Assembly (NCBI GenBank): GCA_902613185.1
Contig: CACMGP010000002.1
Coordinates: 285,378-349,377 of the forward strand
Origin: an uncultured Alphaproteobacteria bacterium
GTDB taxonomy: Bacteria; Pseudomonadota; Alphaproteobacteria; HIMB59
Length of the DNA stretch: 64,000 bases
Direction of reading: 5' to 3'
The position numbers were made by a program, and so were the translations under genes. Shown here in pieces: positions 39,964 to 60,267 of this stretch. The stretch's first letter is position 1. Every line of letters starts with the position of its first letter. The notes beneath the pieces are model-generated. The model saw only the letters and a program-made list of their open reading frames with translations. It was not told the origin of the DNA and did no database searches.

Positions 39964-40578
39964 TTAGTTAGCGATTAAATTTAATAACTTACCAAACTTA
40001 CCAGAGAATTTAATTTTGCCGTGTGTGTAAGCTAATCCGATACAACCGGTTTGGGCATGACCAATAGGAGTGTGATTGTGGTCGTCACTTCTTACTTGAA
40101 CAGATCCTTGCTCATAATTTCCATACTCATCACTATAAGAGCCATGTAAAACTAAAAAACTTTCATTGCCTTCGTGTGTGTGCTGAGGAATTTTAGCACC
40201 GGGCATTACATGGATGAGTTCTAGTTTTTCATTATTTTCCTTTGCAAGTATAGAAGCAACCTTCACATCTTTAAAAGATTTCCATTTAATTTTTTTATTT
40301 TTTAAATGGGATCTTAAAGTGACTGGTAGTTGACTTAACAAAGGGTCATGCTCTTCGTTATTTTGAGTTGCTGACTTTTCTTTATCAGTTTGTTCTAAAA
40401 CTTTATTCCATAAGTCTTTAGACAAAGGGGATGTTTCAACTTTTTCTAAAAAATACCCGCCTACCTCATTCATCGCAGAGTTGAGCGATCTATTTTCAGG
40501 ATCAACTTCAGCTAAACACTGCTGAAAAATAAGACTGGCAGGTGAATTTACTGGTGTACTAAGAATTTCGAATGTCAT
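39964..40578 (-). CDS. ChrR-family anti-sigma factor, zinc-binding N-terminus degenerate
   Basis: Cupin-type anti-sigma factor partner of the adjacent ECF sigma gene. The C-terminal cupin (about 110-195) keeps metal ligands in PQHTHEGNESFLVLHGSYSD and HNHTPIGH. The N-terminal anti-sigma domain should carry a His/Cys zinc site, typically HxxxCxxC. Here that segment reads QQCLAEVDPENRSLN, with no HxxxCxxC, followed by the recognisable AMNEVGGYFLEKVE. It may use another release mechanism. In Rhodobacter the ChrR-RpoE pair responds to singlet oxygen. It begins at the sigma stop with a one-base overlap. Confidence 0.8.
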   Translation of the reverse strand: MTFEILSTPVNSPASLIFQQCLAEVDPENRSLNSAMNEVGGYFLEKVETSPLSKDLWNKVLEQTDKEKSATQNNEEHDPLLSQLPVTLRSHLKNKKIKWKSFKDVKVASILAKENNEKLELIHVMPGAKIPQHTHEGNESFLVLHGSYSDEYGNYEQGSVQVRSDDHNHTPIGHAQTGCIGLAYTHGKIKFSGKFGKLLNLIAN

Positions 40579-41174
40579 CAGTTAACCATACTTCCACTGT
40601 CATTATTTAGATTAACCATAGTGCCGTCTTGTTCCAATTTGCCGCGGATCTTTTCTAAAGCTAGACGAATTCTTGATTTTACGGTGCCTAAAGGGATTTT
40701 GGTTATCTCAGCTATTTCACCATGTGATTTTTCCTCAAAGAAATTCATTTTTAGCAGATCTAGTTGATCTTTTGGAAGATCATCTAAATATTGTGCCACC
40801 ATTTCAAATTTTTGGTCATGTTCGATATTTTCATCTGCTTTAGACTCAACTGGAGGTAAAATGGCAGTCTCAATGTCCTCCAAGATCGCTTTTCTAGTTT
40901 TTCTTAAAATATCAATTTTCTTGTTACGAGCGATTGTATAAATCCAGGTGCTCGGTGAAGCAACTGAAGGGTCATAGTAATCAGCTTTGGTCCAAATAAT
41001 TGTCATGGTTTCTTGTATGATTTCCTCTGCAATGGCGTCATCCGCGCCTGACTTCATCAAAAAAGATTTCAATCTGGGACCAAAATAATCGAAAATTTTC
41101 TTAAAACTTCCAATATCTTGTCTTTCAGCAATATTTTGAAGTGCCTCCACAAAGGGATTTTTAACCTTAGCCAT
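40578..41174 (-). CDS. ECF sigma factor (RpoE/ChrR group)
   Basis: About 198-residue group IV sigma factor. Region 2 is LKSFLMKSGADDAIAEEIIQETMTIIWTKA (with the core-binding helix) and WIYTIARNKKIDILRKT. Region 4 is DQLDLLKMNFFEEKSHGEIAEITKIPLGTVKSRIRLALEKIRGKL, a helix-turn-helix for the -35 element. The start is set at 41174, where GGAGAGG lies just upstream; an ATG at 41186 is a near alternative. Overlap with ChrR supports a sigma/anti-sigma pair. The regulon is probably photo-oxidative stress. Confidence 0.9.
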   Translation of the reverse strand: MAKVKNPFVEALQNIAERQDIGSFKKIFDYFGPRLKSFLMKSGADDAIAEEIIQETMTIIWTKADYYDPSVASPSTWIYTIARNKKIDILRKTRKAILEDIETAILPPVESKADENIEHDQKFEMVAQYLDDLPKDQLDLLKMNFFEEKSHGEIAEITKIPLGTVKSRIRLALEKIRGKLEQDGTMVNLNNDSGSMVN

Positions 41175-41253
41175 TAACCTCTCCATCTATATCTTTCCAT
41201 TTATTATTTTAAAAATCAATCTTAATTGGTATATTCTCTGACATTAAATCAGC

Positions 41254-43311: not shown

Positions 43312-45723
43312 TTATCCTTGTGTTAAAAAATAATCTGATATCCCTAGTTCCATGATATCGGCGATAACATTTACAATTTGATCTTTATGTTCAGGCCCAA
43401 CTAAAATCCTGTACATTACTGGATCTGAAACTAATGTTGGCCTGACTTCTACGCGTGTGCCTATTTTTTTTGCTACATCATCAGCAACAATTTTTGAGAC
43501 TTTTTCTTTTTTAAAAGCACCAATTTGAATAAACGCTGATTGATTGGGATCATAAGAAGTCATTGATTCAATTTGACTTCCGAGACTGTCATTAAGAGCA
43601 GCAATTAAAACGTTTTTATTAGGCTTAGGCTTAGATTTAATTTTGAAACTTGAATCGAGGATTATATCAGAAGTGTTCTCTAAATTTTGTTGCTCTTTAA
43701 AATTTAGAGCTGCTATTAAAGAGTCAAGCTGTTCTTCATTTACTTCCTCGTTAAAGATTATGATATTTTTAAGTTTTGCTTCAAGTATCTCGTTTAATTC
43801 ATTTAATAGATCTTCATTAATTTTTTCTTCAGGTATGTTTTCAGGGCGCAAATTATTTGTATTCCAACTAAGTGTAAATGTATCAGAAATATTTGTAATA
43901 TCGTTACTTGCTTCAACTATTAAATCTAATGATCCCATAGCAAATGGCGGACTAGCAACAAATGTATGTTGGGAAGGAAGAAATACGAGCCATGACGGTA
44001 AAGCTTCCCCATTCGCCATCTTTACACTGTATCTAGTTTTGCCACTACCCTCTAAATAAAATGTTTTCTCATCAAATTGAAATATAAAATCCACGAAATC
44101 ATAATTTGATAAATTCACATTCTCTTCGACTATTTTTGCTGATTGAACAAGAACAGGATTTTGTTCGTTTATTGGTATAGTTACAAACGAATTATATTTT
44201 TTTGTCCAACGATTTAAGTTTTCTTTAAGAGCTAGTGCTAGTTCATTATCACTGATTTGAGATAAATTTTCTGGGGTAAAGTTCATTCCCACAGATGAAT
44301 ACAACGTTCCCAGGCTATATTGTAATTCAGCATATGCAATGTCATTTCTCAATTGCGAAACAAGCAGGCTTGCTTCTTCTCTGATCATTTCTAATTCTCC
44401 AAAACGAGAAATTTTTTGAGCATTTGAAATTAAATCATTAATTCTCTGAGCAACACTAAGGTAGTGTTTGGCGTTACTGTATTCTCTTAAACTTTGTGCG
44501 TAGTTGATATTAGCAATATGGACTTGAGATAAAACAGCCATTGAAACAGCTAATCTTTGCTCTTCAATCAGTTTTTCATTAATTTGATTTATGTCATTGA
44601 TGTTACTTGCTTGAAAAATATTCAATAAATTGGCGCCAAAAACAGCACCGTATTCAACATTATCTTTATTTAACAAATACTTATTAGAGTCATATGTCCA
44701 TGTAGCGTTAAATTGAAGCGATGGAAACAAAGATAGCATCGATGCTTTTGCTTCTTGAGCTGTGACTTTTTCTTGGTATCTGACCTCTAAAAGTTCTGGT
44801 CTTGAAAACAACGCTGCCTCTTCTTGCTCTTCTAGAGACATGTTTAACTCCGTTAGAGGCTGTTCTGTTTTGATTAAAATATATTCTTGATTTGGTAATA
44901 GTCCCATTAATTTAGATATCTGTGCGCGAGAGTCCATTAAAGCTCGACGCTGTGTATTTAAAATTTGTAAAACATCCAGTAATTCTTTTTGGTATAATAA
45001 AGCATCCATAGGAGAGCTGATTAAAAGCTCTTCAATATATTCATAATCATCTAATGCAGCATTAACTCTATCCATTAAAGGATTTATTTGACTTAATAAC
45101 TCGTCTGCAGAAAGTGTCTTCCAATAAGCATAAATAACTTCCTTTGTTAAATTATGAATGGCCTTACGTTCTAACTCTTTTGAAATTAAATATTTGTTAG
45201 CTTGCTGACCTGCTCTGACATAAGACAGACCAAAGTCTAATGCATTCCAAGTGAAACCTATGTCATATGAATTTGAGGGTGTTTGTTGTGAAAGTGTATA
45301 AGTAGGGCTATCTGCAATAGCTTCTGCAGCTGTATTATCTGTTCCAGTAATATCATTTCCATCGCTGTCTTTTTCAGCAGCCATATTAACACTCGTTGAA
45401 GCGGGATGTTTTTCTAAAACTTTATAACCTGCGTTGACTGATAGTTTCGGCAACATATCAAACTTGACCACATCAATTTGACCCTGACTTAACGCCGAGT
45501 CCATCAGATTCAATCGTAAATCACGGTTATTTTTGATTGCAATAGCAATAGCCTGATAAAGATCTATTTCTAAAGGAGCACCTTCAGATGTTTGTTTGAG
45601 GTACTCTAAGTCCTCTTGGGATGAAAGCTGGACTTCTTCTTTTACAATTGGCATAGGTGTCTTTGAACACCCCCAAATGAAAATTGTAGCAATAAATACA
45701 ACAAAAACCTTATAATTAGCCAT
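43312..45723 (-). CDS. Lipoprotein TolC-family outer-membrane channel with Ig-like and SPOR domains
   Basis: About 803 residues from the ATG at 45723, chosen because it starts a lipoprotein signal (MANYKVFVVFIATIFIWGCSK, Cys19). An in-frame ATG at 45759 would precede it with polar residues. Residues about 60-490 are a TolC/OEP channel (paired coiled-coil halves, e.g. SRPELLEVRYQEKVTAQEAK). Residues about 520-625 are an Ig/cadherin-like domain (LPSWLVFLPSQ near 43975-44005). After a helical linker comes a C-terminal SPOR domain (FIQIGAFKKEKVS...YRILVGP, about 728-803) that should bind denuded peptidoglycan at the septum. It is divergent from the giant adhesin gene, whose exporter channel it probably forms. 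Confidence 0.85.
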   Translation of the reverse strand: MANYKVFVVFIATIFIWGCSKTPMPIVKEEVQLSSQEDLEYLKQTSEGAPLEIDLYQAIAIAIKNNRDLRLNLMDSALSQGQIDVVKFDMLPKLSVNAGYKVLEKHPASTSVNMAAEKDSDGNDITGTDNTAAEAIADSPTYTLSQQTPSNSYDIGFTWNALDFGLSYVRAGQQANKYLISKELERKAIHNLTKEVIYAYWKTLSADELLSQINPLMDRVNAALDDYEYIEELLISSPMDALLYQKELLDVLQILNTQRRALMDSRAQISKLMGLLPNQEYILIKTEQPLTELNMSLEEQEEAALFSRPELLEVRYQEKVTAQEAKASMLSLFPSLQFNATWTYDSNKYLLNKDNVEYGAVFGANLLNIFQASNINDINQINEKLIEEQRLAVSMAVLSQVHIANINYAQSLREYSNAKHYLSVAQRINDLISNAQKISRFGELEMIREEASLLVSQLRNDIAYAELQYSLGTLYSSVGMNFTPENLSQISDNELALALKENLNRWTKKYNSFVTIPINEQNPVLVQSAKIVEENVNLSNYDFVDFIFQFDEKTFYLEGSGKTRYSVKMANGEALPSWLVFLPSQHTFVASPPFAMGSLDLIVEASNDITNISDTFTLSWNTNNLRPENIPEEKINEDLLNELNEILEAKLKNIIIFNEEVNEEQLDSLIAALNFKEQQNLENTSDIILDSSFKIKSKPKPNKNVLIAALNDSLGSQIESMTSYDPNQSAFIQIGAFKKEKVSKIVADDVAKKIGTRVEVRPTLVSDPVMYRILVGPEHKDQIVNVIADIMELGISDYFLTQG

Positions 45724-45872
45724 TCTTTCCCCGTCAAAAATAACAGCATAAAATCTCATAATTGTGGATAAAAAACAACCAAGAAATTTCTATATATTTT
45801 TACAAATTCAATGAAAATCCATTGAATTTATTGTATATTTCTGGGCTGGAGAGATAAGAGGAGAGTAAATAA

Positions 45873-48800
45873 GTGGCTGATAAACAGAAAACTTATCCAC
45901 ATTTTAGCATTCAAATGCTGGAACCTAGGATTATGTTTGATGGTGCTGCTGTTTATGCTGCTAGTGAAGCCATTGAAGCTGTCGAAGACCAAATTCAAAA
46001 CAACTCTCTTAGCGAAAGCGATCTTTCAACTAATTTAAAAGCGATTTCTCACAATAATGACTCAAGAAAAGAAATTGTTTTTATAGATAAGGGTGTCGAT
46101 GAATATCAAACTATTATTAACTCCATCGATGAAACAAAATCTATCTATTTAATTGAGTCTAATGAAAACGGCTTTGCAAAAATGCAGAGTATTTTGCAAG
46201 ATCAAAGTGACATCGATGCAGTACATATAATAGGACACGCAAGCACTGGTCAGGTATTACTTGGAAATTCAATATTAAATTCCGAAACGATTAATTCTTT
46301 TAGCACAACACTTCAGTCTATTGGCTCTTCCTTAACTCAAGACGGTGACTTGTTGTTCTATGGTTGTAACCTGGCACACGGCGATCAAGGAAAGCTGCTT
46401 ATACAACAAATTGGAAATATCACTCAAGCAGATATCGCAGCTTCTGATGATATCACTGGTAAAGACGGTGATTGGTTATTAGAAGTAGAAAAAGGAATTA
46501 TTGAGGCCAAAAGTTTAGAAGTAAACCATTATGACTCTAATCTTGTATCTTTAGCAGGTGTCTCGTCAAGTAGTGGTTTCGTTGTTGAGACTGGAACTAA
46601 TTTAAGAGCAGGTCAAAATGCTGAGAACACAGCTTCTAACGCAAACGATCACACAGATGGACATAAACCATATGTCATCGCTTTGGAGAGAGAAAATCTA
46701 ACAACTGGTACTTTCGCATTTTATAAACAAAATATTACAGGTTATTTTGAGGAAAGTAATAGCGGTGTAGACACTAATGGACCTGATATCTCATCAAACA
46801 CAACCTCTGTAACTGCAACTCAAGCTGCCCCATTAAATGTTTATTTAGTTATGGCTACTGAAAATTCTGGAAGAAATGCTGTGAGATCAATTACATTTGA
46901 CGGTGAAATTAAAGGTATTTGGTTCAACATGGAGAATATTATCGAGTATGCAGCAGTAGATAAAGATAACGCCACGTACCATACAATTAGCCAACATGGT
47001 AACAGCAACAGAAATGCTTTTAGTACTGAAAGACTGAAAACAAATTGGGGAACTGATATTACAATAAATTCAAAACCCGTTCTAAGTAGTGGCCAAAAAT
47101 ATAAAAATGACTGGTTTGGAGTCGACACAGACTCCAACACATTATACGTTGGCTTTAATAACTCTGGAAAACACGGTGATACTATCAGGGTTTTTACTGC
47201 TAACAGTAATTCTGTAACTGCAGTTAATGACACTGATTCTGTAAATGAAGACGCTGCTGTAACTAAAACAGCTTCTCAAGATGACGTCTTAAATGACGAT
47301 AGCGATTCCGAAAGCGATTCATTCAGCGTAACACACATTAAAAAATATGGTGGAACAGACTCGGCTGTTAGTTCAGGGACTAATAATAGCAATGGCACTT
47401 CAGTAACCGGAACATATGGAACATTAGTCATCGGTGCAGATGGTTCCTACACTTATACCGCTGATCAAGACGCTGCAGATGATTTAGATGCTAATGACAC
47501 AGCACCAGATACTTTTGTTTACACCATTACAGATGATCATGGTGCAACTGACACTGCAGATTTAGTTATCACAGTAACTGGTGTTAATGACGACCCTGTT
47601 GCAGTGAATGACACCGATAGTGTTACTGCAGATCAGAGTGTATCAAAATCTGAATCTCAAGACGATGTCATGAATGATGATAGTGATCCCGATGATGACG
47701 ACACATTTACTGTTACCCATATTAAGAAATATGGTGCTGCCTCAAACTCCACTGTTAGTTCAAGTACCACTAATGCTAACGGAACATCTGTTACAGGTAC
47801 ATATGGTGTTCTTACAATTGGAGCAGACGGTTCTTATACTTATAACGCAAATAATGCAGACTCATTGGCTGATGGAATTGAAGGCACAGATACATTTGTC
47901 TATACAATTACTGATACCCAAGGGGGCACTGCCACTGCAAATTTAGTAATTACTGTTACAGGTATAAATAACGCTCCAACCGCACAAAATGATGTGGGTG
48001 TGATTGATGAGGGTGAGACTTTAACAGTTGCAAATGGCACTAATGCTAATGTTTCTGGAAGTTTTGATGCAGATGAGGAACATTCTGGAGATCTTATGGA
48101 CACAAGTTCAAGTTCACATAAAGACAGTGACCCTGATAGCGACACTCTTTCGATAACACTCATAAAAGAGACAACCGCGGGTACTAACAGTAGCATCAGT
48201 TCAAACAGCACATATAATGGTACTGGCAGTAGTGCTGGCACATCAGTTTCTGGTTTGTATGGCACACTTACAATTGGATCAGATGGCTCTTATAAATATG
48301 TTGCTAACGACAGCATTTCCGGTTTTGATGATGGTGAAACACTAACTGATAGTTTTACCTATACTTTAAGTGATGGAACTGCAACAACTACGGGCACTTT
48401 ATCAATTACTCTCTTAGGTCAAGATAATGAGAGTCCTTCCGCAACGAATAACACAAATTCTGTTAATGAAGATGCATCTGTTTCTGCATCAGACGGATCG
48501 ACAGGTACGACAGGAGATGTATTAACAAATGATACTGATCCGGAAGGAGACACTCTTTCAGTTTCAAAAATAAAAAAGAATGGTGGAAATTTCTCAAACG
48601 TATCCTCAGGAACTACCAATAGTAATGGAACTAGCGTAACTGGAACTTATGGAACATTAGTCATCGGTGCTGACGGATCTTATACTTACACGGCAGATCA
48701 ATCTTTAGCAGACGACTTGGATGCGAGCGATCAGGTCACGGATATTTTTGTTTATGAAGTATCAGATGGCAATGGGGGAACAGCAGAAGCAAATATTACT

Positions 48801-51800
48801 ATTACAGTTACTGGTATTAATGACACTCCTGATGCAGTAGACGATACAGACACTGTGAATGAAAATGAAACAGTAACTAAAACAGGCTCTCAGAACGATG
48901 TACTAAACGATGATAGTGATCCTGATGATGACGACACAATTACAGTCACAAAAATCAAACATAGCACTAGTACAAATTCTGATGTGAACGCAAGCAGTAC
49001 TTACAATAGTAATTTTACAACTGTAACAGGAACTTTTGGAACTCTTAAAATCGGTGCTGATGGATCTTATACTTACACTGCAGATCAAACTGCAGCAAAT
49101 GCCTTAGACTCTACTGAGACAGGAGTAGATGAATTTACCTATACAATCAAAGATAGCAACAATGCTGAGGACACTGCCACGCTAACAATTACAGTAAACG
49201 GTGCTAATGATACCCCTGTTGCAGTAGATGACACTGATAGTACAAATGAGGGACAAAGCGTCACGAAAACAGGATCTCAAAACGATGTGTTGAACGATGA
49301 CAGTGACCCTGATGGGGATACTATTACTGTTACACAAATTAAAAAGAAGACTGGCGGTTCAAACTCCGCTGTAAGTTCGAGCAGTACATATAACAGTAAT
49401 GGAACTAGTGTAGCTGGAGACAAAGGAACATTAGTTATTGGTGCAGACGGTTCTTATACCTACACTGCAAATTCTGATATTTCTGGACTTGATGATGGAG
49501 CTACAACTACTGACACATTCGTCTATACAATTTCTGATGGCGACGCTACTACTACAGCAGAACTTGAAATTACTATTACTGGTGGAAGTTCGGGAAATAG
49601 AGATCCATCTGCAACGAATAACACAAATTCTGTTAATGAAGATGCATCTGTTTCTGCATCAGACGGATCGACAGGTACGACAGGAGATGTATTAACAAAT
49701 GATAGTGATCCTGATGGAGATACAATATCAGTTTCAAAAATAAAAAAGAATGGTGGAAATTTCTCAAACGTATCCTCAGGAACTACCAATAGTAATGGAA
49801 CTAGCGTAACTGGAACTTATGGAACATTAGTCATCGGTGCTGACGGATCTTATACTTACACGGCAGATCAATCTTTAGCAGACGACTTGGATGCGAGCGA
49901 TCAGGTCACGGATATTTTTGTTTATGAAGTATCAGATGGCAATGGGGGAACAGCAGAAGCAAACATCACAATAACAGTAACTGGTGTAAATGATGACCCC
50001 AATGCAGTAAATGACACCGATAGTGTTAATGAAGATGCCAGTGTATCAAAATCCGGCACAGGAGATGATGTGATGAATGATGATAGTGATCCTGATGATG
50101 ATGACTCATTTACTGTTACTCAAATTAAACATAACAATGGTACAAATTCTGATGTGAGTTCAGGAACTACTAGTAGTAATGGAACATCAGTTACGGGAGA
50201 ATACGGCACTCTAGTAATCGGTGCTGATGGATCTTATACTTACACTGCAGACCAAACGAAAGCAGACGATTTAGATTTAAATGATAATGCAACAGATACA
50301 TTTGTCTATACAATTACTGATAGCCAAGGGGGCACTGCCACTGCAGATCTAGTGATAACAGTGACTGGTGTTAACGATGACCCCGTTGCAGTGAACGATA
50401 CAGATAGCGTGAATGAAGACGCAACTGTTACTAAAACAAGCTCTCAAGATGACGTCATGAATGATGATAGTGATCCTGATGAAGATGATACATTCACTGT
50501 TACTCAAATTAAAAAAAATAATGGTTCAAATTCCAATGTAGCCTCTGGGAGTACTTACAGTAGTAATGGAATATCAGTTACTGGAGAATACGGTACCCTA
50601 GTTTTAGGCGCTGATGGATCTTATACTTACACCGCTGACCAAACGAAAGCAGACAATCTTGATAAGGACCAAACAGCAACAGACACATTTGTTTATACTA
50701 TTACAGATGGTAACAATGCGACTGCGACAGCTAATCTGGTAATAACTGTAACTGGTGTTAATGATGACCCTGTTGGAGTAGATGATACTGATAGTGTTAA
50801 CGAAGATGCCACTGTTTTTAAAAAGCCATCAGAGGATGATGTTTTAGACGATGATACTGATTTGGACACTAGTTCTAGTCTTACAGTAACAAATATTTCT
50901 CATTCAAATGGTAATTCAGGATCAGTTAATTCTGGTACTACTTACGATGGAACAGGAAGCCAGGCAGGTACAACAATTATCGGTACCTACGGAACTTTAA
51001 CGATTGGTGCGGATGGATCGTATACTTACACAGCTGACCAAGATGCTTCCGATAATATTGCTGATGGCTCAAGTGAGATTGATGTTTTCACTTACACGGT
51101 GTCCGATGGTACAGCCACAGATACAGCAACAATCACTATTACAGTCAATGGTGTCAATAATGAAGTCTCTGGCACAAACGATACTGGAAGTGTTACCGAT
51201 GGAAATACTCTGAGTATAGGAAATAAAGGCTCAGGTCTGTTATCAAACGATACTGATAGTGGAAGTGATGCTGATGAGAGCGCAAATGCAACAGTTTCTG
51301 CTGTAAGAACTGGAACGGAGGCGGGCACTGGTACAAGCGGTACTGTGGGATCCTCTTTAAAAGGAACTTACGGAACATTAACACTCAACTCAGACGGTAC
51401 CTATACATATGTTGCCGACCAGGATGGAGCAGACATTCTGACTCCTGATACAACAGCGATAGATTATTTTACTTATACAATCTCAAATGGAACAAGTACT
51501 GATACAGCACAATTAGCTGTCACAGTTACTGGTATCAATGATGCCCCTACTTCTTCTACAGCCCCTACATTTAGAGGTGCTGAAAATAATAGGATTGTCA
51601 TACAGTCAAAACTTTTCTTCGACGATCCAGATCCAAGCAACAGTACCTACGGGCAACTAACTTATAGTTACGGTGGTTTACCATCAGGTCTGACAGTTAA
51701 CGATGCAGGAAGAATCAGAGGCCGTCTACCTGAAGGCACTTATACTTTTACAGTAACGGCTACAGACGGAGGTAACCTATCTACACAACAAACATTTACA

Positions 51801-52697
51801 ATAATCATCGGAAAGCCTGGAAAGCCTGGTGAAGCACCAACTCCACCACTGATTGTTAAGCAAAAAACTTTAGAAGCAGCTATTGCTGATAAAACAGTGA
51901 CATTTGAAACACCTAAAGTTAATGACCAAATAGCTGACCTTGCGGTGAGAGGGAATTTAGGCTCTCTAGTCAAGGAATACACATTCAATGGCGGTATGAA
52001 GGTAATCGATGTTGCTGTTGAAGATTTAAATATTGATCAAAGTGGAAGACCTGGAATAAATGAAAATACTTTATTAGGATTTGCGATTGGAGATGATTAT
52101 AGAGTTAATGTAAAACAATATACAGGGACTTTGGAGGACGGTTCTTCTCTTCCAAGCTGGATACGTGTTGATCCATCAACAGGTCAGACGATCGTTCAAT
52201 TTCCTCAAAATATTTACTCAATCGATGTCAAGGTGATTGCAATCGATAATGATAATAGCACAAGAGAAATTAATGTTACTCTGGATAGAAACTCTGTTAG
52301 CCAGGACAAAGCCTTGAAACGCGACCTCGAGCCTTTCATAGACCGAAGTGCAGCTTTAAAAACCGAAGTTACTGTTGATGAAAAAGGACAAATTTTACTT
52401 GATACACAAAATGATTTAGAAGATGGATCAATTTTAAATGACACTCTCAACCCAAATGACTCAAACAATAATGACAATCAAACACCTAACACAGACGATC
52501 AGTCAAATCTTATTGATATACCAACTATTCCAGGAGAAATTGATGGTGTTACTTCTCAAGAAGCATATGTTTTAAATACACAAAATTTTGATACAGATGA
52601 AGAACTTATTAAATTTGCAACTCTTCAAGAGCAATTAGACTCACAGTATGAAGGTCATGAAAATTATGGAGATAAACTTGTTAAAGTTTCTGGTTAA
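45873..52697 (+). CDS. Giant VCBS-repeat surface protein (LEPR motif, DUF4347)
   Basis: 2274-residue cell-surface adhesin-like protein. No classical signal peptide; the N-terminus carries LEPRIMFDGA (residues 16-25), the motif typical of this class. Residues about 65-225 are DUF4347, with HIIGHAS (His122) and LLFYGCNLAHG (Cys165). An unassigned region spans about 230-445. Eleven VCBS repeats of about 130 residues cover about 448-1886. A He_PIG-type Ig-like domain (about 1890-1985) and a second Ig-like LPSWIRVD domain (about 2060-2125) precede an acidic tail. There are no RTX nonapeptides. GTG start after AAGAGGAGAG. The adaptor genes follow immediately. Likely role: attachment or aggregation; ligand unknown. 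Confidence 0.9.
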   Translation: MADKQKTYPHFSIQMLEPRIMFDGAAVYAASEAIEAVEDQIQNNSLSESDLSTNLKAISHNNDSRKEIVFIDKGVDEYQTIINSIDETKSIYLIESNENGFAKMQSILQDQSDIDAVHIIGHASTGQVLLGNSILNSETINSFSTTLQSIGSSLTQDGDLLFYGCNLAHGDQGKLLIQQIGNITQADIAASDDITGKDGDWLLEVEKGIIEAKSLEVNHYDSNLVSLAGVSSSSGFVVETGTNLRAGQNAENTASNANDHTDGHKPYVIALERENLTTGTFAFYKQNITGYFEESNSGVDTNGPDISSNTTSVTATQAAPLNVYLVMATENSGRNAVRSITFDGEIKGIWFNMENIIEYAAVDKDNATYHTISQHGNSNRNAFSTERLKTNWGTDITINSKPVLSSGQKYKNDWFGVDTDSNTLYVGFNNSGKHGDTIRVFTANSNSVTAVNDTDSVNEDAAVTKTASQDDVLNDDSDSESDSFSVTHIKKYGGTDSAVSSGTNNSNGTSVTGTYGTLVIGADGSYTYTADQDAADDLDANDTAPDTFVYTITDDHGATDTADLVITVTGVNDDPVAVNDTDSVTADQSVSKSESQDDVMNDDSDPDDDDTFTVTHIKKYGAASNSTVSSSTTNANGTSVTGTYGVLTIGADGSYTYNANNADSLADGIEGTDTFVYTITDTQGGTATANLVITVTGINNAPTAQNDVGVIDEGETLTVANGTNANVSGSFDADEEHSGDLMDTSSSSHKDSDPDSDTLSITLIKETTAGTNSSISSNSTYNGTGSSAGTSVSGLYGTLTIGSDGSYKYVANDSISGFDDGETLTDSFTYTLSDGTATTTGTLSITLLGQDNESPSATNNTNSVNEDASVSASDGSTGTTGDVLTNDTDPEGDTLSVSKIKKNGGNFSNVSSGTTNSNGTSVTGTYGTLVIGADGSYTYTADQSLADDLDASDQVTDIFVYEVSDGNGGTAEANITITVTGINDTPDAVDDTDTVNENETVTKTGSQNDVLNDDSDPDDDDTITVTKIKHSTSTNSDVNASSTYNSNFTTVTGTFGTLKIGADGSYTYTADQTAANALDSTETGVDEFTYTIKDSNNAEDTATLTITVNGANDTPVAVDDTDSTNEGQSVTKTGSQNDVLNDDSDPDGDTITVTQIKKKTGGSNSAVSSSSTYNSNGTSVAGDKGTLVIGADGSYTYTANSDISGLDDGATTTDTFVYTISDGDATTTAELEITITGGSSGNRDPSATNNTNSVNEDASVSASDGSTGTTGDVLTNDSDPDGDTISVSKIKKNGGNFSNVSSGTTNSNGTSVTGTYGTLVIGADGSYTYTADQSLADDLDASDQVTDIFVYEVSDGNGGTAEANITITVTGVNDDPNAVNDTDSVNEDASVSKSGTGDDVMNDDSDPDDDDSFTVTQIKHNNGTNSDVSSGTTSSNGTSVTGEYGTLVIGADGSYTYTADQTKADDLDLNDNATDTFVYTITDSQGGTATADLVITVTGVNDDPVAVNDTDSVNEDATVTKTSSQDDVMNDDSDPDEDDTFTVTQIKKNNGSNSNVASGSTYSSNGISVTGEYGTLVLGADGSYTYTADQTKADNLDKDQTATDTFVYTITDGNNATATANLVITVTGVNDDPVGVDDTDSVNEDATVFKKPSEDDVLDDDTDLDTSSSLTVTNISHSNGNSGSVNSGTTYDGTGSQAGTTIIGTYGTLTIGADGSYTYTADQDASDNIADGSSEIDVFTYTVSDGTATDTATITITVNGVNNEVSGTNDTGSVTDGNTLSIGNKGSGLLSNDTDSGSDADESANATVSAVRTGTEAGTGTSGTVGSSLKGTYGTLTLNSDGTYTYVADQDGADILTPDTTAIDYFTYTISNGTSTDTAQLAVTVTGINDAPTSSTAPTFRGAENNRIVIQSKLFFDDPDPSNSTYGQLTYSYGGLPSGLTVNDAGRIRGRLPEGTYTFTVTATDGGNLSTQQTFTIIIGKPGKPGEAPTPPLIVKQKTLEAAIADKTVTFETPKVNDQIADLAVRGNLGSLVKEYTFNGGMKVIDVAVEDLNIDQSGRPGINENTLLGFAIGDDYRVNVKQYTGTLEDGSSLPSWIRVDPSTGQTIVQFPQNIYSIDVKVIAIDNDNSTREINVTLDRNSVSQDKALKRDLEPFIDRSAALKTEVTVDEKGQILLDTQNDLEDGSILNDTLNPNDSNNNDNQTPNTDDQSNLIDIPTIPGEIDGVTSQEAYVLNTQNFDTDEELIKFATLQEQLDSQYEGHENYGDKLVKVSG
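48441..48793 (+). repeat. Homogenised VCBS unit, copy A
   Basis: Part of the fourth VCBS repeat. It is near-identical at DNA level to 49611-49963, exactly 1170 bases (three repeat units) downstream. The two differ only in a short internal stretch (about 48534-48557). The last roughly 236 bases are identical, including third codon positions, which indicates recent duplication or gene conversion. Confidence 0.9.
49611..49963 (+). repeat. Homogenised VCBS unit, copy B
   Basis: Part of the seventh VCBS repeat and partner of 48441-48793. The flanking repeats between the two copies are clearly different in DNA sequence. Confidence 0.9.
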
Positions 52698-53394
52698 AAT
52701 AATAATTTTATCTCTCTTATTTACTGTTTCCTCTAAAGCCGAAGTTAGGGAATCAAGAGCTTTAGTGGTTGCATCTCAAGAAGCTGTTCTTTCCAGTGAA
52801 TTGGCCGCTCGTATTAATAGTATTTCTGTAAAAGAAATGGAAAGATTTAAAAAAGGAGATTTACTCATTCAATTCGATTGTAGTTTGTATGAAGCACAAA
52901 AAGATGTAGTCAGAGCCAATGAAAATAGCGCACTGATTAAATTAAAAAGTGATGAACAGATGTTACAGATGAGATCAATTGGAAAATATGAACTTGAACT
53001 TTCTATATCAGAGTATGAGAAGGCAAAATCGGAATTACGTATTGCTGAATTAAATGTAGATAGATGTGAAATTAGAGCGCCTTTTGATGGCGCGGTTGAG
53101 GAAGTTGTCGTAAACGCATTTGAGTCGATACAGCCTCAAGTTGAATTAATGAAGATTATAAAAACTGATGTTCTTGAATTAGAAATGGTAGTGTCCAGTG
53201 AATGGGTTTCTTGGTTAACAATAGGCCATCCAATCACTGTTTATATTGATGAAATACAAGAAGAATTCAATGCTTCTATAAGTGGAATTGGTGCAAATGT
53301 TGACGCTGTAAGCCAAACAATTCAACTAAAAGGTACTATTACAAACGCTAGCTCTGCCCTTCTGCCTGGAATGAGTGGGCGAGTTGTATTTTGA
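52648..53394 (+). CDS. HlyD-family periplasmic adaptor
   Basis: 248-residue membrane-fusion-type adaptor with a cleavable signal or anchor (LVKIIILSLLFTVSSKAE). It has a biotinyl-lipoyl-like hairpin pattern: SSELAARINSISVKEMERFKKGDLLIQFD, then a coiled-coil helix pair, then CEIRAPFDGAVEEVVVNAFESI and a beta-barrel ending in GMSGRVVF. The ATG at 52648 overlaps the adhesin 3' end by 50 bases; a second ATG at 52666 is possible. It should bridge an inner-membrane component to the TolC-like channel encoded upstream. It overlaps the next gene at its stop (TTGA). Confidence 0.85.
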   Translation: MKVMKIMEINLLKFLVKIIILSLLFTVSSKAEVRESRALVVASQEAVLSSELAARINSISVKEMERFKKGDLLIQFDCSLYEAQKDVVRANENSALIKLKSDEQMLQMRSIGKYELELSISEYEKAKSELRIAELNVDRCEIRAPFDGAVEEVVVNAFESIQPQVELMKIIKTDVLELEMVVSSEWVSWLTIGHPITVYIDEIQEEFNASISGIGANVDAVSQTIQLKGTITNASSALLPGMSGRVVF

Positions 53395-54725
53395 GCCAAG
53401 ACCAATTAAATCGTTTAGCAAGGATTTTCACGTTTGAAAAAAAATTACGTGAAGCAAAATCTTTAGTAGAAATCAGATATACAGTTACAAATGAATTAAG
53501 AAATATAACTCCTTTTGTGTTTGCTTTTTTTGGAGAATGGGCAAACCCAAATAAATTTAAGATTGATGCTATTTCTGACATAGCAGTTGTAGAACAAACT
53601 TCCTCGACAACTATATTAGCTCAGAAAATAATTAGAGAAAAATTAAAAGAAGGATCTCCTGATACGCATCCATTTACAATCGAAAAAGACTCATTAATTC
53701 CTGCTAAAGGTGAAAATCCAATTCCAGATAAACTTTTATGGGTTCCTTGTTTTTCAAATCAAAAAGGCCCTCAAGCAGCATTGATACTTGCAAGAGATGA
53801 AAATTGGGAAGAGCAAGATATTGAGTACATTAGACACTTGAGTTCATCTATTGGACACGCGATGGGATCGCTCAAAGAAAATAATTTTTTTGAAAGTTCC
53901 ATTAAAGTTTTTAAAAATACATGGTTTCAATTTTTAATTATAGCTGGAATTGTTGCTAGTATGTTCATTCCAATTTCTCTTTCAACGGTTGGTAAATCAG
54001 AAATTGTCCCAAAAGATCCATACGTTATAAATGCTCCTATCGAAGGTGTCATACAAGATGTTCTTATTCAAAATAATGATGAAGTTAATATTGGAACAAC
54101 TTTAATTTCTTTTGAAAAAACAGATTTACAAAATGATTACGATTTGGCTTTCCAAGAATTAAAAGTAATTGAAACGGAGTTACTTCAGGCAAAACAGTCT
54201 TCTTTTCAAAGTAAAGAGGACAAAGCGATGGTCAGTCAACTTCAGAGTAAAATTAAACTTGTAGAACAAACCTTAAGTTATCAGAAATATCTATTAGATG
54301 AATCTACGATCAATTCTCCTGCTGATGGAATTGCAGTTATCAAGGATAAATCACTTCTTATAGGCAAGCCTTTTAAGGTAGGAGAGACAATAATGGTTAT
54401 TGCTGACCCATCGAATGTTGTTGTCGAGATAATGATGCCAATAAAAGATGCTATAACAGTCAAAAAAGACGCAGAAATAAACGTTTTTTTAGACTCTGAT
54501 CCACTAAATGTTATTCCTGCAAAAGTTTCAAAATTTTCTTATGAGCCTGAACTTACCAGTGAGAACACTCTAGCTTACCGGGTAACAGCGGAAATTCTTA
54601 CGGCCAAGAACTCTCCAAGAATTGGACTCAGAGGAACTGCAAAAATTTTCGGTGAAGAGGTGAAACTATTTTTTTACTTATTTAGAAAACCAATTATTTT
54701 TGTCCGACAAACACTTGGTATCTAA
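53391..54725 (+). CDS. GAF-like domain / membrane / HlyD-like adaptor protein
   Basis: 444 residues with three parts. The cytoplasmic part (about 15-160) has the rhythm of a GAF domain (SLVEIRYTVTNELRNIT..., and LWVPCFSNQKGPQAALILARDENWEEQDIEYIRHLSSSI at its end). A membrane helix follows at 179-200. A periplasmic HlyD-type adaptor starts PYVINAPIEGVIQDVLIQNNDEVNIGTTLISFE and includes a coiled coil and INSPADGIAVI. The GAF-like part could sense a small molecule or bind a partner and gate secretion. TTG start overlapping the preceding stop. The next gene starts immediately after its stop, so all three adaptor genes are coupled. Confidence 0.75.
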   Translation: MSQDQLNRLARIFTFEKKLREAKSLVEIRYTVTNELRNITPFVFAFFGEWANPNKFKIDAISDIAVVEQTSSTTILAQKIIREKLKEGSPDTHPFTIEKDSLIPAKGENPIPDKLLWVPCFSNQKGPQAALILARDENWEEQDIEYIRHLSSSIGHAMGSLKENNFFESSIKVFKNTWFQFLIIAGIVASMFIPISLSTVGKSEIVPKDPYVINAPIEGVIQDVLIQNNDEVNIGTTLISFEKTDLQNDYDLAFQELKVIETELLQAKQSSFQSKEDKAMVSQLQSKIKLVEQTLSYQKYLLDESTINSPADGIAVIKDKSLLIGKPFKVGETIMVIADPSNVVVEIMMPIKDAITVKKDAEINVFLDSDPLNVIPAKVSKFSYEPELTSENTLAYRVTAEILTAKNSPRIGLRGTAKIFGEEVKLFFYLFRKPIIFVRQTLGI

Positions 54726-56828
54726 ATGATTACACCATCAATAAGACAAGATCTTCAACTTTTACCTGGAACCCCTATGGAGGACGGTTCTCCATCATGG
54801 CTTATTTATGATAATTTAAGAAACAAATATTTTACATTAGGTTTAAATGCTTTTCGAATACTGAGACATTGGATTGCAGGTGTAGACTCAAAACAGTTTA
54901 TAGAAAAGGTAGAAGCCAAGGGAGTTACTATCAAGGAAGAGGAGTTAGATGATTTTATAAATTTTTTAAAAGTTAATAGTTTAATAACTCACTCAAGTTC
55001 AGAAGATGTTAAACTATTACTAGCTCAACATCAGGCTAAAAAAAAATATTGGTTTTTAAGTTTAATTCATAATTATCTTTTTTTTAAAATACCTTTGATT
55101 AAGCCAGATCCTTTTTTAGACAGAACAATAAATATAGCTAAGATTTTTGGAAAAAAACATTTTAGATCAATAATTTACTTTTTTGGTATTATTGGAATTT
55201 ATTTTGTTATTCAAAGCTGGGATGAATTTTTATCTACTTTTTTGTATTTCTTCAATTTTAATGGATTAATTTTTTATGCAATTGCATTAGTAGGTGTAAA
55301 AGCAATTCACGAATTAGGCCATGCTTACACAGCTAAGAATTTTGGATGTAATGTCAATTCAATGGGAATTGCGTTTTTAGTTTTTTTTCCTTTTTTATAC
55401 ACGGACAATACTAATGCCTGGAGACTTAGAGATCATAAGAAAAGACTGACAATAAATTTTGCTGGAATCTCGACAGAGCTACATTTAGCATTGCTGGCTA
55501 CTTTTGTATGGGGAGTATCTGATCCAGGAATTCTGAAAAGTGCCGCTTTTTTCGTTGCTACGACAGGATGGATTTCATCACTTCTTATTAATATTAGCCC
55601 ATTTATGAGGTTTGATGGATATTACGTATTTGCTGATTTTATAAAAATAGACAACCTTCAGCCTAGAGCATTTGCTATTGCAAAATGGAAATTGCGAAAT
55701 TGGTTGTTTGGATTGAGCCTTAGCCCTCCTGAGCATATGAGCCAACAACGCCAAAATTTAATTACTCTTTATGCCTGGTCGACTTGGATATACAGGTTCT
55801 TCCTATTTATAGGTATAGCTTTACTGGTTTATTTTTTTGCATTTAAAATTTTAGGAATATTTCTTTTTGTAGTAGAAATTATTTGGTTTATAGCACTGCC
55901 TATTTTAAAAGAGTTAAGAGAATGGTGGAAACTACGCTCAAGTTTCTTTTTAAATATTCGTATAATTAGAACAATTTTAATTTTAGGAGCCCTATTATTT
56001 ATTTTATTTTACCCTTGGAAAAATACACAGTCCATACCAGCAATTTATCAATCAGAAGAATACATTACAATTTACCCAACAATAAATTCACAAGTTTCAG
56101 AAATATACGTTAAAGAAAATCAATCTGTTCAATTAGGAGCAGACTTAATAAAACTAAATTCTCCATCGCTTAATTCAGATATACAAAAACTTATTGAAGA
56201 AAAAAAATTAATTTCAATTCAAATAAACAATGCTTTAGAGGGTGATCAAAATAAATCAGATTTAATGATAATGAAAAGTGAAGAAAAAAAAATTATAACC
56301 AATATTAATAATTTAGAAAAAATTAAATCATCGTTAAATATCATCGCACCATTTAAAGGAGAGATTGTAAGTTTAATTGAATTAAAAAAAAATCAATGGC
56401 TAAATAAAGATGATCCAATTATGTCAATTGTAAATAAAGAGTCATTTCAAGTCATAGCTTTTTTATCTGAAAATGATATTTCAAAGGTTAAAGAGTTTAA
56501 AAATAGTTTTTTTGTTCCTTATTCAATTGAAATGCCAAAGGTTGACTTAGAAGTAGTGTCCATAAGCAAATCACCAGTAGACGATTTTAGCCTCTATCCC
56601 TCGGTTACCTCTATTTTTAACGGCCCTATAGCTGCAAGAGAAAAACCTGGTGGAGGAATACAATCTGAGAAGTCCTATTATAAAGTAACCCTTAAATTGT
56701 CAGAAAATATAATCTTTTCCGATAAGAAAGTTTTAGGCGTTGCAAATGTAGGTATTCAGCCACAGTCCTATTTTGATAAAATATTAAATCTAATATCTGC
56801 GACCCTTATAAGAGAAATAAGTTTTTAA
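54726..56828 (+). CDS. PqqD-like / M50 metalloprotease / HlyD fusion protein
   Basis: 700-residue inner-membrane protein. Residues about 1-90 resemble a PqqD-like peptide-binding domain (LLPGTPMEDGSPSWLIYDNLRNKYFTLGLNAFRILRHWI). Residues about 145-430 are a site-2-protease (M50) membrane domain with zinc motif HELGH (195-199) and downstream NISPFMRFDGYYVFADF, which supplies the third ligand region (NxxPxxxxDG-like). After a further helix (about 412-430) comes a HlyD-type adaptor (TIYPTINSQVSEIYVKENQSVQLGADLIKLN, coiled coil, IIAPFKGEIVSLIELKKNQWL). No ATPase is fused. It probably forms the inner-membrane part of the adhesin exporter; the protease substrate is unknown. Confidence 0.85.
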   Translation: MITPSIRQDLQLLPGTPMEDGSPSWLIYDNLRNKYFTLGLNAFRILRHWIAGVDSKQFIEKVEAKGVTIKEEELDDFINFLKVNSLITHSSSEDVKLLLAQHQAKKKYWFLSLIHNYLFFKIPLIKPDPFLDRTINIAKIFGKKHFRSIIYFFGIIGIYFVIQSWDEFLSTFLYFFNFNGLIFYAIALVGVKAIHELGHAYTAKNFGCNVNSMGIAFLVFFPFLYTDNTNAWRLRDHKKRLTINFAGISTELHLALLATFVWGVSDPGILKSAAFFVATTGWISSLLINISPFMRFDGYYVFADFIKIDNLQPRAFAIAKWKLRNWLFGLSLSPPEHMSQQRQNLITLYAWSTWIYRFFLFIGIALLVYFFAFKILGIFLFVVEIIWFIALPILKELREWWKLRSSFFLNIRIIRTILILGALLFILFYPWKNTQSIPAIYQSEEYITIYPTINSQVSEIYVKENQSVQLGADLIKLNSPSLNSDIQKLIEEKKLISIQINNALEGDQNKSDLMIMKSEEKKIITNINNLEKIKSSLNIIAPFKGEIVSLIELKKNQWLNKDDPIMSIVNKESFQVIAFLSENDISKVKEFKNSFFVPYSIEMPKVDLEVVSISKSPVDDFSLYPSVTSIFNGPIAAREKPGGGIQSEKSYYKVTLKLSENIIFSDKKVLGVANVGIQPQSYFDKILNLISATLIREISF

Positions 56829-56876: not shown

Positions 56877-57221
56877 ATGGCTAAATTTTTGAGTGTCGTG
56901 CGTTTCAAAGTTAAACCTGGTAATGAACAATCCTTTATTGACTCAATGAAGAAGTTTTCAAATCCAGATGGGGTTATTACCCGCAAAGTTATAAAGACAG
57001 GTGAAAGATCCTATTGTAGCGTTGTCGAGTGGGTTGATGAAAATAGTCTTGCCAATGCTCGCCAACAAATGATCGCATATCTCGACACTATAAGAGATAT
57101 TTTAGAGGAACTCAGTTCAGAATTGGGAGTAACTGATCCAGTCTCCGGTCCAGTAATAGTTGATGAGCAAGGAAACGTTGTAACACCTGGATCAATTATT
57201 TCAGGAAAAATAAAAACTTAA
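56877..57221 (+). CDS. Antibiotic-biosynthesis-monooxygenase-like (dimeric alpha/beta barrel) protein
   Basis: 114 residues; the first 90 match the dimeric alpha/beta-barrel (ABM/EthD-type) pattern: FLSVVRFKVKPGNEQSFIDSMKKF, then ITRKVIKTGERSYCSVVEWVDENSLANARQQM. A short hydrophilic tail follows (DEQGNVVTPGS). No signal peptide. It lies 48 bases after the exporter operon in the same direction but has its own upstream AT-rich gap. Linkage to the exporter is uncertain. It is convergent with folD. Confidence 0.6.
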   Translation: MAKFLSVVRFKVKPGNEQSFIDSMKKFSNPDGVITRKVIKTGERSYCSVVEWVDENSLANARQQMIAYLDTIRDILEELSSELGVTDPVSGPVIVDEQGNVVTPGSIISGKIKT

Positions 57222-58460: not shown

Positions 58461-59225
58461 TTATTCGCGTCTATTAAATAAGAAATTTCTGCAACGCTCT
58501 GATTGGGGATTTGTGAAAACTGTGTCAGGATGTCCTTCCTCTTCTACCAGACCATCATGAAGAAAAATTACATTATTTGAAACTTTTCGAGCAAACTCCA
58601 TCTCATGAGTTACAACTAACATTGTTTTACCTTGTTCAGCTAAATTTCGTATAACAGACAAGACCTCATCTACCAATTCTGGATCAAGAGATGATGTCGG
58701 TTCATCAAATAATAATATTTCTGGAGAAATAGCGAGTGCTCGAGCTATTGCAGCCCTTTGTTGCTGTCCTCCTGATAGAAGAGAAGGATATTCTTTTGCT
58801 TTGTCAGCAATCCCAACTTTTTTTAATAGGATCATTGCCTCTTCTTCTGCAAGACCTTTATCTATTCCTAAAACATTTACCGGGGCTTCCGTAACGTTAT
58901 CTAAGATATTCATATGAGACCAAAGATTGAAACTTTGAAAAACCATACCCAATTTTTTTCTAATTGAAGTAATTTTCAATTGTAAATTCTTATTAGGTTT
59001 TTTAAAATTTTCATCACTACAATCGATAATTTCACCACAAACATTTACTTTTCCGCTATCAGGTGTTTCAAGGAAATTTACACAGCGAAGCATAGTACTT
59101 TTTCCTGAACCAGAACTTCCAATAATACTTACAACATCTCCTTTATTAGCTACAAGATTAATGCCTTTTAAAACTTTATTTTCACCAAATTTTTTTTCTA
59201 ATTGATTTAACTCAAGTATTTTCAT
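58461..59225 (-). CDS. Amino-acid ABC importer ATPase (HisP/GlnQ type)
   Basis: 254-residue ATP-binding subunit of a polar amino-acid uptake ABC system. Walker A is SIIGSSGSGKSTMLRC, the Q-loop region is LGMVFQSFNLWSHMNILDNV, the signature is LLSGGQQQRAAIARALA and Walker B is EILLFDEPTSSLDPE. Start at 59225 (MKILELNQLEKKFG); an ATG six codons upstream is in frame but lacks support. The solute-binding protein and permeases for this system lie on the opposite strand past the bactofilins. It is an import-type ATPase, not an exporter. Confidence 0.93.
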   Translation of the reverse strand: MKILELNQLEKKFGENKVLKGINLVANKGDVVSIIGSSGSGKSTMLRCVNFLETPDSGKVNVCGEIIDCSDENFKKPNKNLQLKITSIRKKLGMVFQSFNLWSHMNILDNVTEAPVNVLGIDKGLAEEEAMILLKKVGIADKAKEYPSLLSGGQQQRAAIARALAISPEILLFDEPTSSLDPELVDEVLSVIRNLAEQGKTMLVVTHEMEFARKVSNNVIFLHDGLVEEEGHPDTVFTNPQSERCRNFLFNRRE

Positions 59226-59413
59226 TATTCTGTAATATTTCATTTTTTCGATTTCAAAGATATTGCTAAAAAAAGCAAATCTTCAAGTTAATATGTTAAA
59301 TATAATTAAATTTATAATAATCGAAGTTATTAGTTCTAAAAACCTAATCATTTCAATGTTTTTAGAAAATAATTTAGATTTTATGAATATTTAGATTGTG
59401 TTAATATAAAGAA

Positions 59414-59887
59414 ATGGATGAAAATAATATTGAGATGGATGAAAATAACACTGAGTTATCAGGTGATGAAATACAATCTAATCCAATAGATAATGATGCT
59501 AAAGCTGTAAACATAGGTTCTGGTGTTAGAGTTGACGGACGAATAGAGGGAGCAGAAACTTCAGATATTTCTGGAACTCTTACAGGAACTCTAAAATCCT
59601 CAAATATAAATGTTAACAGTAAAGGCGCTTTTAATGGAGACATGTCAGGTCAAGAAATAACTATCTCCGGGAGTGTTGATGGTGAGATAAATTCAGAGGA
59701 TTATTTGATCGTTAATAACTCTGCAAATATTAAAGGAGTAATTGAATACGCTTCATTGCAAGTAAGTTATGGTGCAAGAATTCAAGGTACATTAAGACAT
59801 AGAGGTAGCGTCCAATCGTATTCACCAGTTTCTACTGATGAAATTAAAGAGGATGAGATTAGTGAAAATCAAGAGGTTGAAGAATAA
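59414..59887 (+). CDS. Bactofilin 1
   Basis: 157-residue bactofilin, a polymerising cytoskeletal right-handed beta-helix. The core (about 35-130) has the repeating short strands with Gly turns typical of the family (INVNSKGAFNGDMSGQEITISGSVDGEINSEDYLIV). The disordered N-terminus begins with a small duplication (MDENNIEMDENNTEL) and the C-terminus is acidic. Either ATG of the duplication could start translation. It abuts bactofilin 2, and the pair resembles tandem bactofilin genes elsewhere. They often organise envelope or stalk structures. Confidence 0.87.
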   Translation: MDENNIEMDENNTELSGDEIQSNPIDNDAKAVNIGSGVRVDGRIEGAETSDISGTLTGTLKSSNINVNSKGAFNGDMSGQEITISGSVDGEINSEDYLIVNNSANIKGVIEYASLQVSYGARIQGTLRHRGSVQSYSPVSTDEIKEDEISENQEVEE

Positions 59888-60267
59888 TGGCTTTGTTTGG
59901 ATCTAGTCAAAAAAAACCTGAAGTAAAAACTGAATTTATGTTTGACACTGATTCTACTATTAACCAATCAACTTTAGCGAAAGATATAAAAATTAATGGC
60001 TCTCTTGAGTCCACAGACTATATAGATTTTTCTGGACATTTAACCGGAACAATAAAGTCATCAACCATTAATTTAAAACCAGGTTCTTATGTAAATGGAA
60101 CTGTTACCGCTGATACCTTAACAGTTGAGGGAGAAGTTGACGGAGATATTCAAGTTAAAGATATCTATATTAAGTCAACAGCAAAAATTAAGGGAAATAT
60201 TCGCTATCATAATATTGACATTCAAAATGGAAGTATAATCAACGCAGATTTGTTTTATTCATCATAA
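59887..60267 (+). CDS. Bactofilin 2
   Basis: 126-residue paralogous bactofilin: N-terminal tail, then the beta-helix (INGSLESTDYIDFSGHLTGTIKSSTINLKPGSYVNGTVTADTLTVEGEVDGDIQVKDIYI). It lacks the long acidic tails of its neighbour. It starts at the last base of the bactofilin 1 stop, so the two are translationally coupled and may co-polymerise. Confidence 0.88.
   Translation: MALFGSSQKKPEVKTEFMFDTDSTINQSTLAKDIKINGSLESTDYIDFSGHLTGTIKSSTINLKPGSYVNGTVTADTLTVEGEVDGDIQVKDIYIKSTAKIKGNIRYHNIDIQNGSIINADLFYSS

Follow-up and report, generated by a model that had tools for sequence, protein, structure and literature searches.

The genes at positions 43312 to 56828 of the window (the whole 64,000-nucleotide stretch analyzed here, from an uncultured alphaproteobacterium of the HIMB59 lineage) form a cassette of five: a divergent TolC-type channel, a giant repeat protein, and three closely packed genes that each carry an HlyD domain, in one case fused to an M50 site-2 protease. 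This cassette belongs to a sister group of the module predicted in 2015 around a secondary SecA_DEAD protein, and it has neither a second SecA nor a type I ABC exporter, according to scans for SecA and ABC proteins in the neighbourhoods of related cassettes and in the assembly of the window's own genome. The kind of module was therefore predicted in 2015; what is new, as far as the literature was searched, is the branch free of ABC and SecA2 components, the giant as its likely substrate, the variants of an N-terminal tag carried by the giants, and the domain that would read this tag. Judging from sequence, we see about an even chance that the M50-HlyD protein reads the tag, probably cleaves it, and gates an export line for the giant adhesin that works without an ABC ATPase.

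The channel gene (43312 to 45759, minus strand) encodes a TolC-family outer-membrane protein of 815 amino acids (aa), and the other four genes lie on the plus strand. The giant (45873 to 52697; 2274 aa) carries the tag LEPRIMFDGAAV at residues 16-27 (45918 to 45953), a DUF4347 domain at residues 68-214 (46074 to 46514; E = 7.9e-45) and 10-12 bacterial cadherin/Ig/VCBS repeats. Next come a plain HlyD/RND-type periplasmic adaptor (52648 to 53394; 248 aa, one N-terminal hydrophobic segment at residues 3-33), which passes the RND_mfp cut-off; a second HlyD protein (53391 to 54725; 444 aa, TTG start), with a soluble N-terminal domain, a single hydrophobic segment as its transmembrane part (177-202) and HlyD; and the M50-HlyD protein (54726 to 56828; 700 aa), in which a PqqD/RRE-like domain, an M50 site-2 protease (HELGH at 195-199, RFDG at 295-298) and HlyD are joined. 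A first-pass annotation had described these five open reading frames (ORFs) as a TolC channel, a VCBS giant and three HlyD-type proteins; all five are present at the positions given. The translational coupling that it proposed for the last three genes is visible in an overlap at 53391-53394 and in the abutting ends at 54725/54726. Its label of GAF-like for the second HlyD protein draws on a weak Pfam GAF match, below the cut-off, in the one homologue tested (E = 0.033), and on the 2015 paper, which assigns GAF to this kind of protein; no Pfam GAF appears in the window's protein even at E 5.

In that paper, Kamneva, Poudel and Ward grouped a secondary SecA_DEAD protein with M50-HlyD, GAF-HlyD and HlyD proteins, proposed M50 as the pore and the second SecA as the motor, and described an OEP channel in some loci and no ABC transporter (PMC4452313). 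A profile of 12 M50-HlyD proteins was run against 396 genomes from the phylum, and 79 gave matches; two candidates were scored per genome, and the counts of copies are thus lower bounds. The 109 rows split into a strong group of 85 places (E ≤ 1.7e-151; group 1, that of the window's cassette) and a weak group of 23 (E ≥ 1.2e-103; group 2), with one duplicate piece dropped, and a tree of 99 sequences from the fetched loci separates 19 group-2 from 80 group-1 proteins with a branch support of 1.0. A SecA gene lies within 20 kb of 17 of the 23 group-2 places and of none of the 85 group-1 places (P = 4e-15; short contigs could hide some SecA genes). Among the genomes with group-1 places only, 45 of 56 have a single SecA, and 11 have more, none of them within 20 kb of a group-1 place. 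No SecA match was found in 100 neighbourhoods with a query that can miss degenerate copies; the same query, as a control, recovered SecA in 14 of 16 fetched group-2 stretches known to hold it. We considered a second SecA as the missing motor, and rejected it for the window: such a gene stands beside most group-2 M50-HlyD genes, not beside the window's cassette, and the window's genome (1.35 Mb in 11 contigs, 92% complete) has one SecA.

The cassette thus shares with the 2015 module the three kinds of HlyD-bearing protein in one cluster, the absence of an ABC transporter, and an M50 protein proposed as pore. It differs in having no secondary SecA_DEAD gene beside the M50-HlyD gene, in an M50-HlyD protein that falls outside the SecA-linked group, and in a tag whose last residues are D-[GA]-A where the group-2 tags mostly have [LF]SA. 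The first-pass annotation had offered the M50-HlyD protein as a possible translocation core; this idea is already in print, with the second SecA as motor (PMC4452313). The consulted part of that paper names no substrate or tag for the module, and a search of open-licence papers found no experiments on the gene set, in line with the earlier remark that no experimental description was known.

Giants located beside TolC and HlyD adaptors are easily taken for type I secretion substrates. The cassette indeed resembles the type I systems of the LapA, BapA and RTX giants in its TolC-type channel (OEP), its HlyD-family periplasmic adaptor and its giant repeat adhesin, but it differs from them in the two extra HlyD fusions, the conserved N-terminal tag, and the absence of an HlyB/LapB-type ATPase. 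The first-pass annotation saw no such ATPase at the locus, and we found none in the cassette, in the rest of the 92%-complete assembly, or in the 100 neighbourhoods when scanned by ABC motifs. The nearby ABC ATPase (58464 to 59243) is HisP/GlnQ-like, an amino-acid importer subunit, as had been said. The two ABC exporters (PF00664) of the window's genome are MsbA- and PglK-like (best NCBIfam models MsbA, 480 bits, cut-off 602, and PglK, 347 bits, cut-off 1000), and the type I models score lower on both (HlyB/LssB 213-264 bits, cut-offs 693-726; PrtD 192-193 bits, cut-off 510); an HlyB-type ATPase elsewhere in the genome was thus not found in this assembly. In G019, a 94%-complete relative that has the cassette, PF00664 matches once, within a frame of 580 aa; across 60 genomes, the window's own and its near relatives, PF00664 matches occur in frames of up to 622 aa, with NCBIfam family assignment made for the two proteins of the window's genome.

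The 100 neighbourhoods comprise 20 loci and the best 80 of at least 462 relatives; the latter, being the best-scoring ones, lean towards the window's own group, and many neighbourhoods are shortened by contig ends. ABC-motif ORFs occur in 16 of the 100, and the sole one longer than 540 aa has no ABC_membrane domain. In forty further stretches the long ORFs with ABC motifs number two: L316 (group 1) has an SMC protein and L288 (group 2) a MacB-like one. Nine plasmid neighbourhoods are annotated, though incompletely; in one of them, from Phyllobacterium, a type I system lies nearby, its own HlyD gene beginning 3.3 kb and its ATPase gene 4.8 kb from the cassette. Counted as clusters with an adjacent HlyB-type ATPase, a comparison already suggested in the first-pass annotation, the 100 neighbourhoods give none, and the Phyllobacterium plasmid is the one exception among the nine.

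The association between the M50-HlyD protein and the DUF4347 giants, which the first-pass annotation suggested looking for, is found across genomes. Among the 60 genomes, 19 have both, two and two have one of them, and 37 have neither (P = 2e-11; one genome, G023, that matches in the HlyD part only is counted as lacking M50). Over the 396 genomes of the phylum, where DUF4347 occurs in 81, group-1 M50-HlyD and DUF4347 are found together in 59, M50-HlyD alone in 5, DUF4347 alone in 22 and neither in 310 (P = 1.5e-45), whereas genomes with group 2 only show no such association (4, 11, 77 and 304; P = 0.52); all of these P-values ignore relatedness. A chance neighbourhood is ruled out by this co-occurrence. 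Genes of these kinds are found together again, though not in a constant order, in Alpha-, Beta- and Gammaproteobacteria and in Nitrospira, and the carriers, some of them cultured, such as Azospirillum brasilense, include ocean, plant-associated and nitrifying bacteria. The nearest cassette among the matches listed comes from an uncultured alphaproteobacterial isolate record (L092), with an M50 protein that is 99% identical.

Most candidate giants near the cassettes carry the tag, which reads LEPRIMFDGA in the window's giant and LE[PSQ]R-h-h-[FL]-D-[GA]-A as a consensus beside group 1. A search of the first 170 residues with the pattern LExR-x(2,3)-[FLYMI]-D-[AGSV] found it in 39 of 49 passenger-like ORFs that lie near a cassette and have a visible N-terminus, and in 1 of 910 other ORFs (≥250 aa), this one (L119) being itself a giant missed by the composition filter; two members of the tag set (L076 and L163) seem to be the same organism twice. 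Relaxing the D so as to admit N, E or S as well added no case among the 49. On plasmids, six of nine ORFs are tagged (Escherichia, Kosakonia, Burkholderia, Azospirillum, Eleftheria and Cupriavidus). Over the 52 distinct tagged ORFs, the residue before D is F or L in 50, the one after it G or A in all 52, and the next A in 49, while L, E, R and D are fixed by the search pattern itself. In none of the 52 does a 15-residue stretch exceed a mean hydropathy of 1.8 within the 40 residues counted from the tag, nor does one before the tag in any of the 46 with enough upstream residues, and by this measure the tag is no Sec signal. A Sec signal on the window's giant was likewise sought by hydropathy and not seen; the scan found no stretch above threshold anywhere in the protein. 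The 24-aa LEPR-XLL model (NCBIfam NF012209) matches giant residues 12-32, where the tag lies, at 13.8 bits (cut-off 17), and the tags of group 2 mostly fit the LL of its name better than the D-[GA]-A of group 1 does. Studholme and others are said to have reported N-terminal motifs in a planctomycete in 2004.

Beside group-2 genes, six giants have a readable N-terminus (20 stretches and 14 extensions were inspected, the rest of the giants run out of the stretch, and other large ORFs without a tag were not counted as passengers). Five of the six tags end in [LF]SA (LEERLLLSA, LEPRFLLSA twice, MEPRLLLSA and LEPRLLFSA). Hence a D-type tag accompanies group 1 in 40 of 40 cases (the 39 and L119) and an S-type tag group 2 in 5 of 6 (P = 4.4e-6, a value made generous by relatedness). 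Three of the six group-2 giants lie beside SecA and three do not; it is thus with the M50 group, not with SecA, that the type of tag changes. Such a change would be expected if the M50-HlyD protein reads the tag.

The N-terminal part of the M50-HlyD protein may be such a reader. Its first ~110 residues match, by hhalign, a PqqD profile built from 30 loci (probability 93.3%, E = 2.7e-7, 68 columns), with three unrelated control profiles scoring 0.2-0.3%; Pfam PqqD was found in none of five M50-HlyD N-terminal domains tested, and a PDB sequence search with the domain gave no match. In many enzymes that modify peptides, a domain of the PqqD fold serves as the RRE, which binds the leader. By eye, group-2 proteins have a similar-looking stretch ahead of HExxH. 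One of the closest known systems is the daptide intramembrane protease (NCBIfam NF041824), whose model covers residues 25-391, most of the PqqD-like and M50 portions (E = 2.8e-34); the score of 118.9 bits is below the cut-off of 300, and the window's protein has in addition an HlyD arm and, as its partner, a giant protein instead of a peptide.

The M50 domain (E = 8.1e-10) has both HELGH and RFDG, and all 124 full-length group-1 sequences (121 distinct) retain HExxH as well as the Asp-Gly downstream of it, the second motif being RFDG in 120 and RWDG or KFDG in 4. Several hydrophobic segments, within 146-224 and 350-432, make the protein polytopic, as a site-2 protease would be. The M50 and HlyD halves lie in a single chain in 124 of 133 hits; of the remaining nine, two are different HlyD proteins, three are fragments of a single broken gene, and four are broken or truncated at a contig end. 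A PDB search for a structure of the fusion gave sequence matches that cover the HlyD part and, in two entries, ~36 residues of M50 as well. The first-pass annotation suggested that this protein may be a translocation core with possible protease activity; the hydrophobic segments and the invariant active site fit both roles, while pore and cleavage remain predictions. At L088 (8568-10738), an M50-HlyD gene lies in three frames near a tagged giant, in what looks like a decaying cassette.

We propose that the locus encodes an export line reserved for a single giant adhesin, for which the tag would be the probable address. The PqqD/RRE-like domain would bind the tag in the cytoplasm, as its domain match and the agreement between tag type and M50 group suggest. 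The M50-HlyD, second membrane HlyD and plain HlyD proteins would together build a gate in the inner membrane and, through the periplasm, a tunnel that joins TolC, a role consistent with their families, and the zinc site, given its invariant residues, may cleave in or near the tag. No type I ABC exporter would take part, none being found in the 92%-complete assembly, and the energy source would be either the one housekeeping SecA or the proton motive force. Should the M50-HlyD protein be the translocase, a leader-reading domain known from peptide modification would also serve in protein secretion, and an intramembrane protease would double as a gate. It is also possible, though here we lean towards doubt, that this is a secretion system of its own type, in which the tag is read by the PqqD/RRE-M50-HlyD protein as translocase with no ABC ATPase or dedicated SecA, and of which the sister branch, under its own tag variant, would in most cases use a second SecA as motor. 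With the tag, substrates can be recognized in sequence data without further information, and the existence of two variants offers a direct test of the match between reader and substrate.

Several observations weigh against this proposal. M50 proteases are not, to our knowledge, known as protein channels. Group-1 M50-HlyD is missing from 22 of the 81 DUF4347 genomes, 18 of which have no M50-HlyD match at all. Ten of the 49 candidate passengers lack the tag (several are unrelated, broken or N-bearing frames), and so do three of the nine plasmid ORFs: the Phyllobacterium protein, a Magnetospirillum ORF that is perhaps a truncated piece, and a second Azospirillum ORF whose frame continues upstream of the annotated start. 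Untagged L130 starts with a Sec-like stretch, as does the large untagged ORF that directly follows a group-2 cassette in L294. Within group 2, one giant (L338) has a D-type tag, ending LDA, and half of the six giants have no SecA nearby.

The giants also share a looser C-terminal motif, [FL]xxQ[LV]...L, and the export signal could therefore be C-terminal. Trained on 27 of these C-termini, a model picked up 15 of 67 further ones at E ≤ 0.01 and 26 at E ≤ 1; of 18 from group-2 stretches it found none at either level, and among 689 background ORFs none at 0.01 and one at 1. The giant might then leave C-terminus first through HlyD and TolC, in the manner of LapA, while its N-terminus serves as an anchor that is released when M50 cuts at the tag, a cleavage that suits this reading equally well. 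We hold it to be unlikely, if well worth weighing: the tag is more constant than the C-terminus, it goes together with a PqqD-like, leader-binding fold, and the type I ABC motor that C-first export would use was found neither in the assembly nor in the neighbourhoods. Export in two steps, with housekeeping Sec carrying the giant into the periplasm, HlyD and TolC serving the outer membrane only, and M50 trimming the product, seems to us distinctly unlikely. One SecA is at hand, a second one belongs to the sister module (PMC4452313), and L130 starts with a Sec-like stretch; against this, the 52 tagged ORFs are without a hydrophobic stretch over threshold from the tag on, the window's giant is without one throughout, and the PqqD-like half of the M50-HlyD protein should face the cytoplasm.

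That the cassette is an ordinary type I system served by an unlinked ATPase, either the MsbA-like protein or one missed in the assembly, would fit the 92% completeness of the genome and the Phyllobacterium plasmid, yet we give it a small chance, with MsbA- and PglK-like exporters alone in the window's genome, a single PF00664 match in G019, the sole long ABC-motif ORF of the 100 neighbourhoods devoid of ABC_membrane, and SMC and MacB-like proteins as the yield of the 40 further stretches. M50 proteases usually act in regulated proteolysis, and a GAF sensor domain is possible in the second HlyD protein (the weak match, and PMC4452313), so that the M50-HlyD protein could be a regulator or maturation protease in the manner of RseP, with HlyD and TolC working for another pump. 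No other pump gene recurs among the labelled features of the cassettes, however, and the union of M50 and HlyD in one chain speaks against a merely regulatory role, which we regard as very improbable. Compared with these alternatives, our proposal of a tag-reading M50-HlyD gate is the one to which the even chance stated at the outset applies.

The channel's affiliation with TolC is through OEP (E = 3.9e-22), the NCBIfam TolC subfamily model being far below its cut-off, and its C-terminal extension has a SPOR match (21.8 bits, cut-off 21) and an He_PIG-like match below the Pfam cut-off. SPOR domains bind septal peptidoglycan, and therefore cells may present the giant where they divide. The BapA/LapF-family model NF045619 scores over its cut-off on the giant, through the repeats. 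In the DUF4347 domain there is an HG...YGC pair whose H and C hardly vary over 34 aligned domains, a pattern that we take to resemble that of caspase-like peptidases; the pair is lost in some Nitrospira copies, where the giants L118, L121 and L125 have a first DUF4347 without the His, and L121 also without the Cys. A PDB search with the window's DUF4347 alone gave no match. We set aside a PDB match to 9QPE chain G (E = 1.9e-4), named a DUF4347 protein and probably an effector of another system; this entry belongs to a study of how type VI effectors are loaded (PMC13323088), and a DUF4347 protein is elsewhere called a putative type VI toxin (PMC8262886). De novo TIM-barrel matches in the same search were taken as noise. 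DUF4347 matches also lie within open frames of 14920 aa (G348:C1:2731072) and 11649 aa (G354:C29:23633).

Escherichia coli carries the cassette as well (L202, 10775-17070), the M50 gene matching in 24 of 5426 complete genomes, at 25 places of which 21 are plasmid-borne. Beside the plasmid cassettes of Kosakonia (L206, 18125-20232), Burkholderia (L207, 1442-2056) and Azospirillum (L209, 991-2850) lie genes whose annotation is tail fiber protein; their products are possibly small co-exported partners. In the window, the cassette is followed at 56877-57221 by a gene for a 114-aa protein that matches ABM weakly (E = 0.01, under the cut-off), and similar-looking ORFs lie close to the cassette in L090 and L091. 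Two neighbouring bactofilin genes follow at 59414-60267 (Pfam, E = 3.5e-18 and 4.1e-21), and about 2 kb before the cassette, at 39964-41186, a Sigma-70-family factor gene adjoins a ChrR-type cupin gene.

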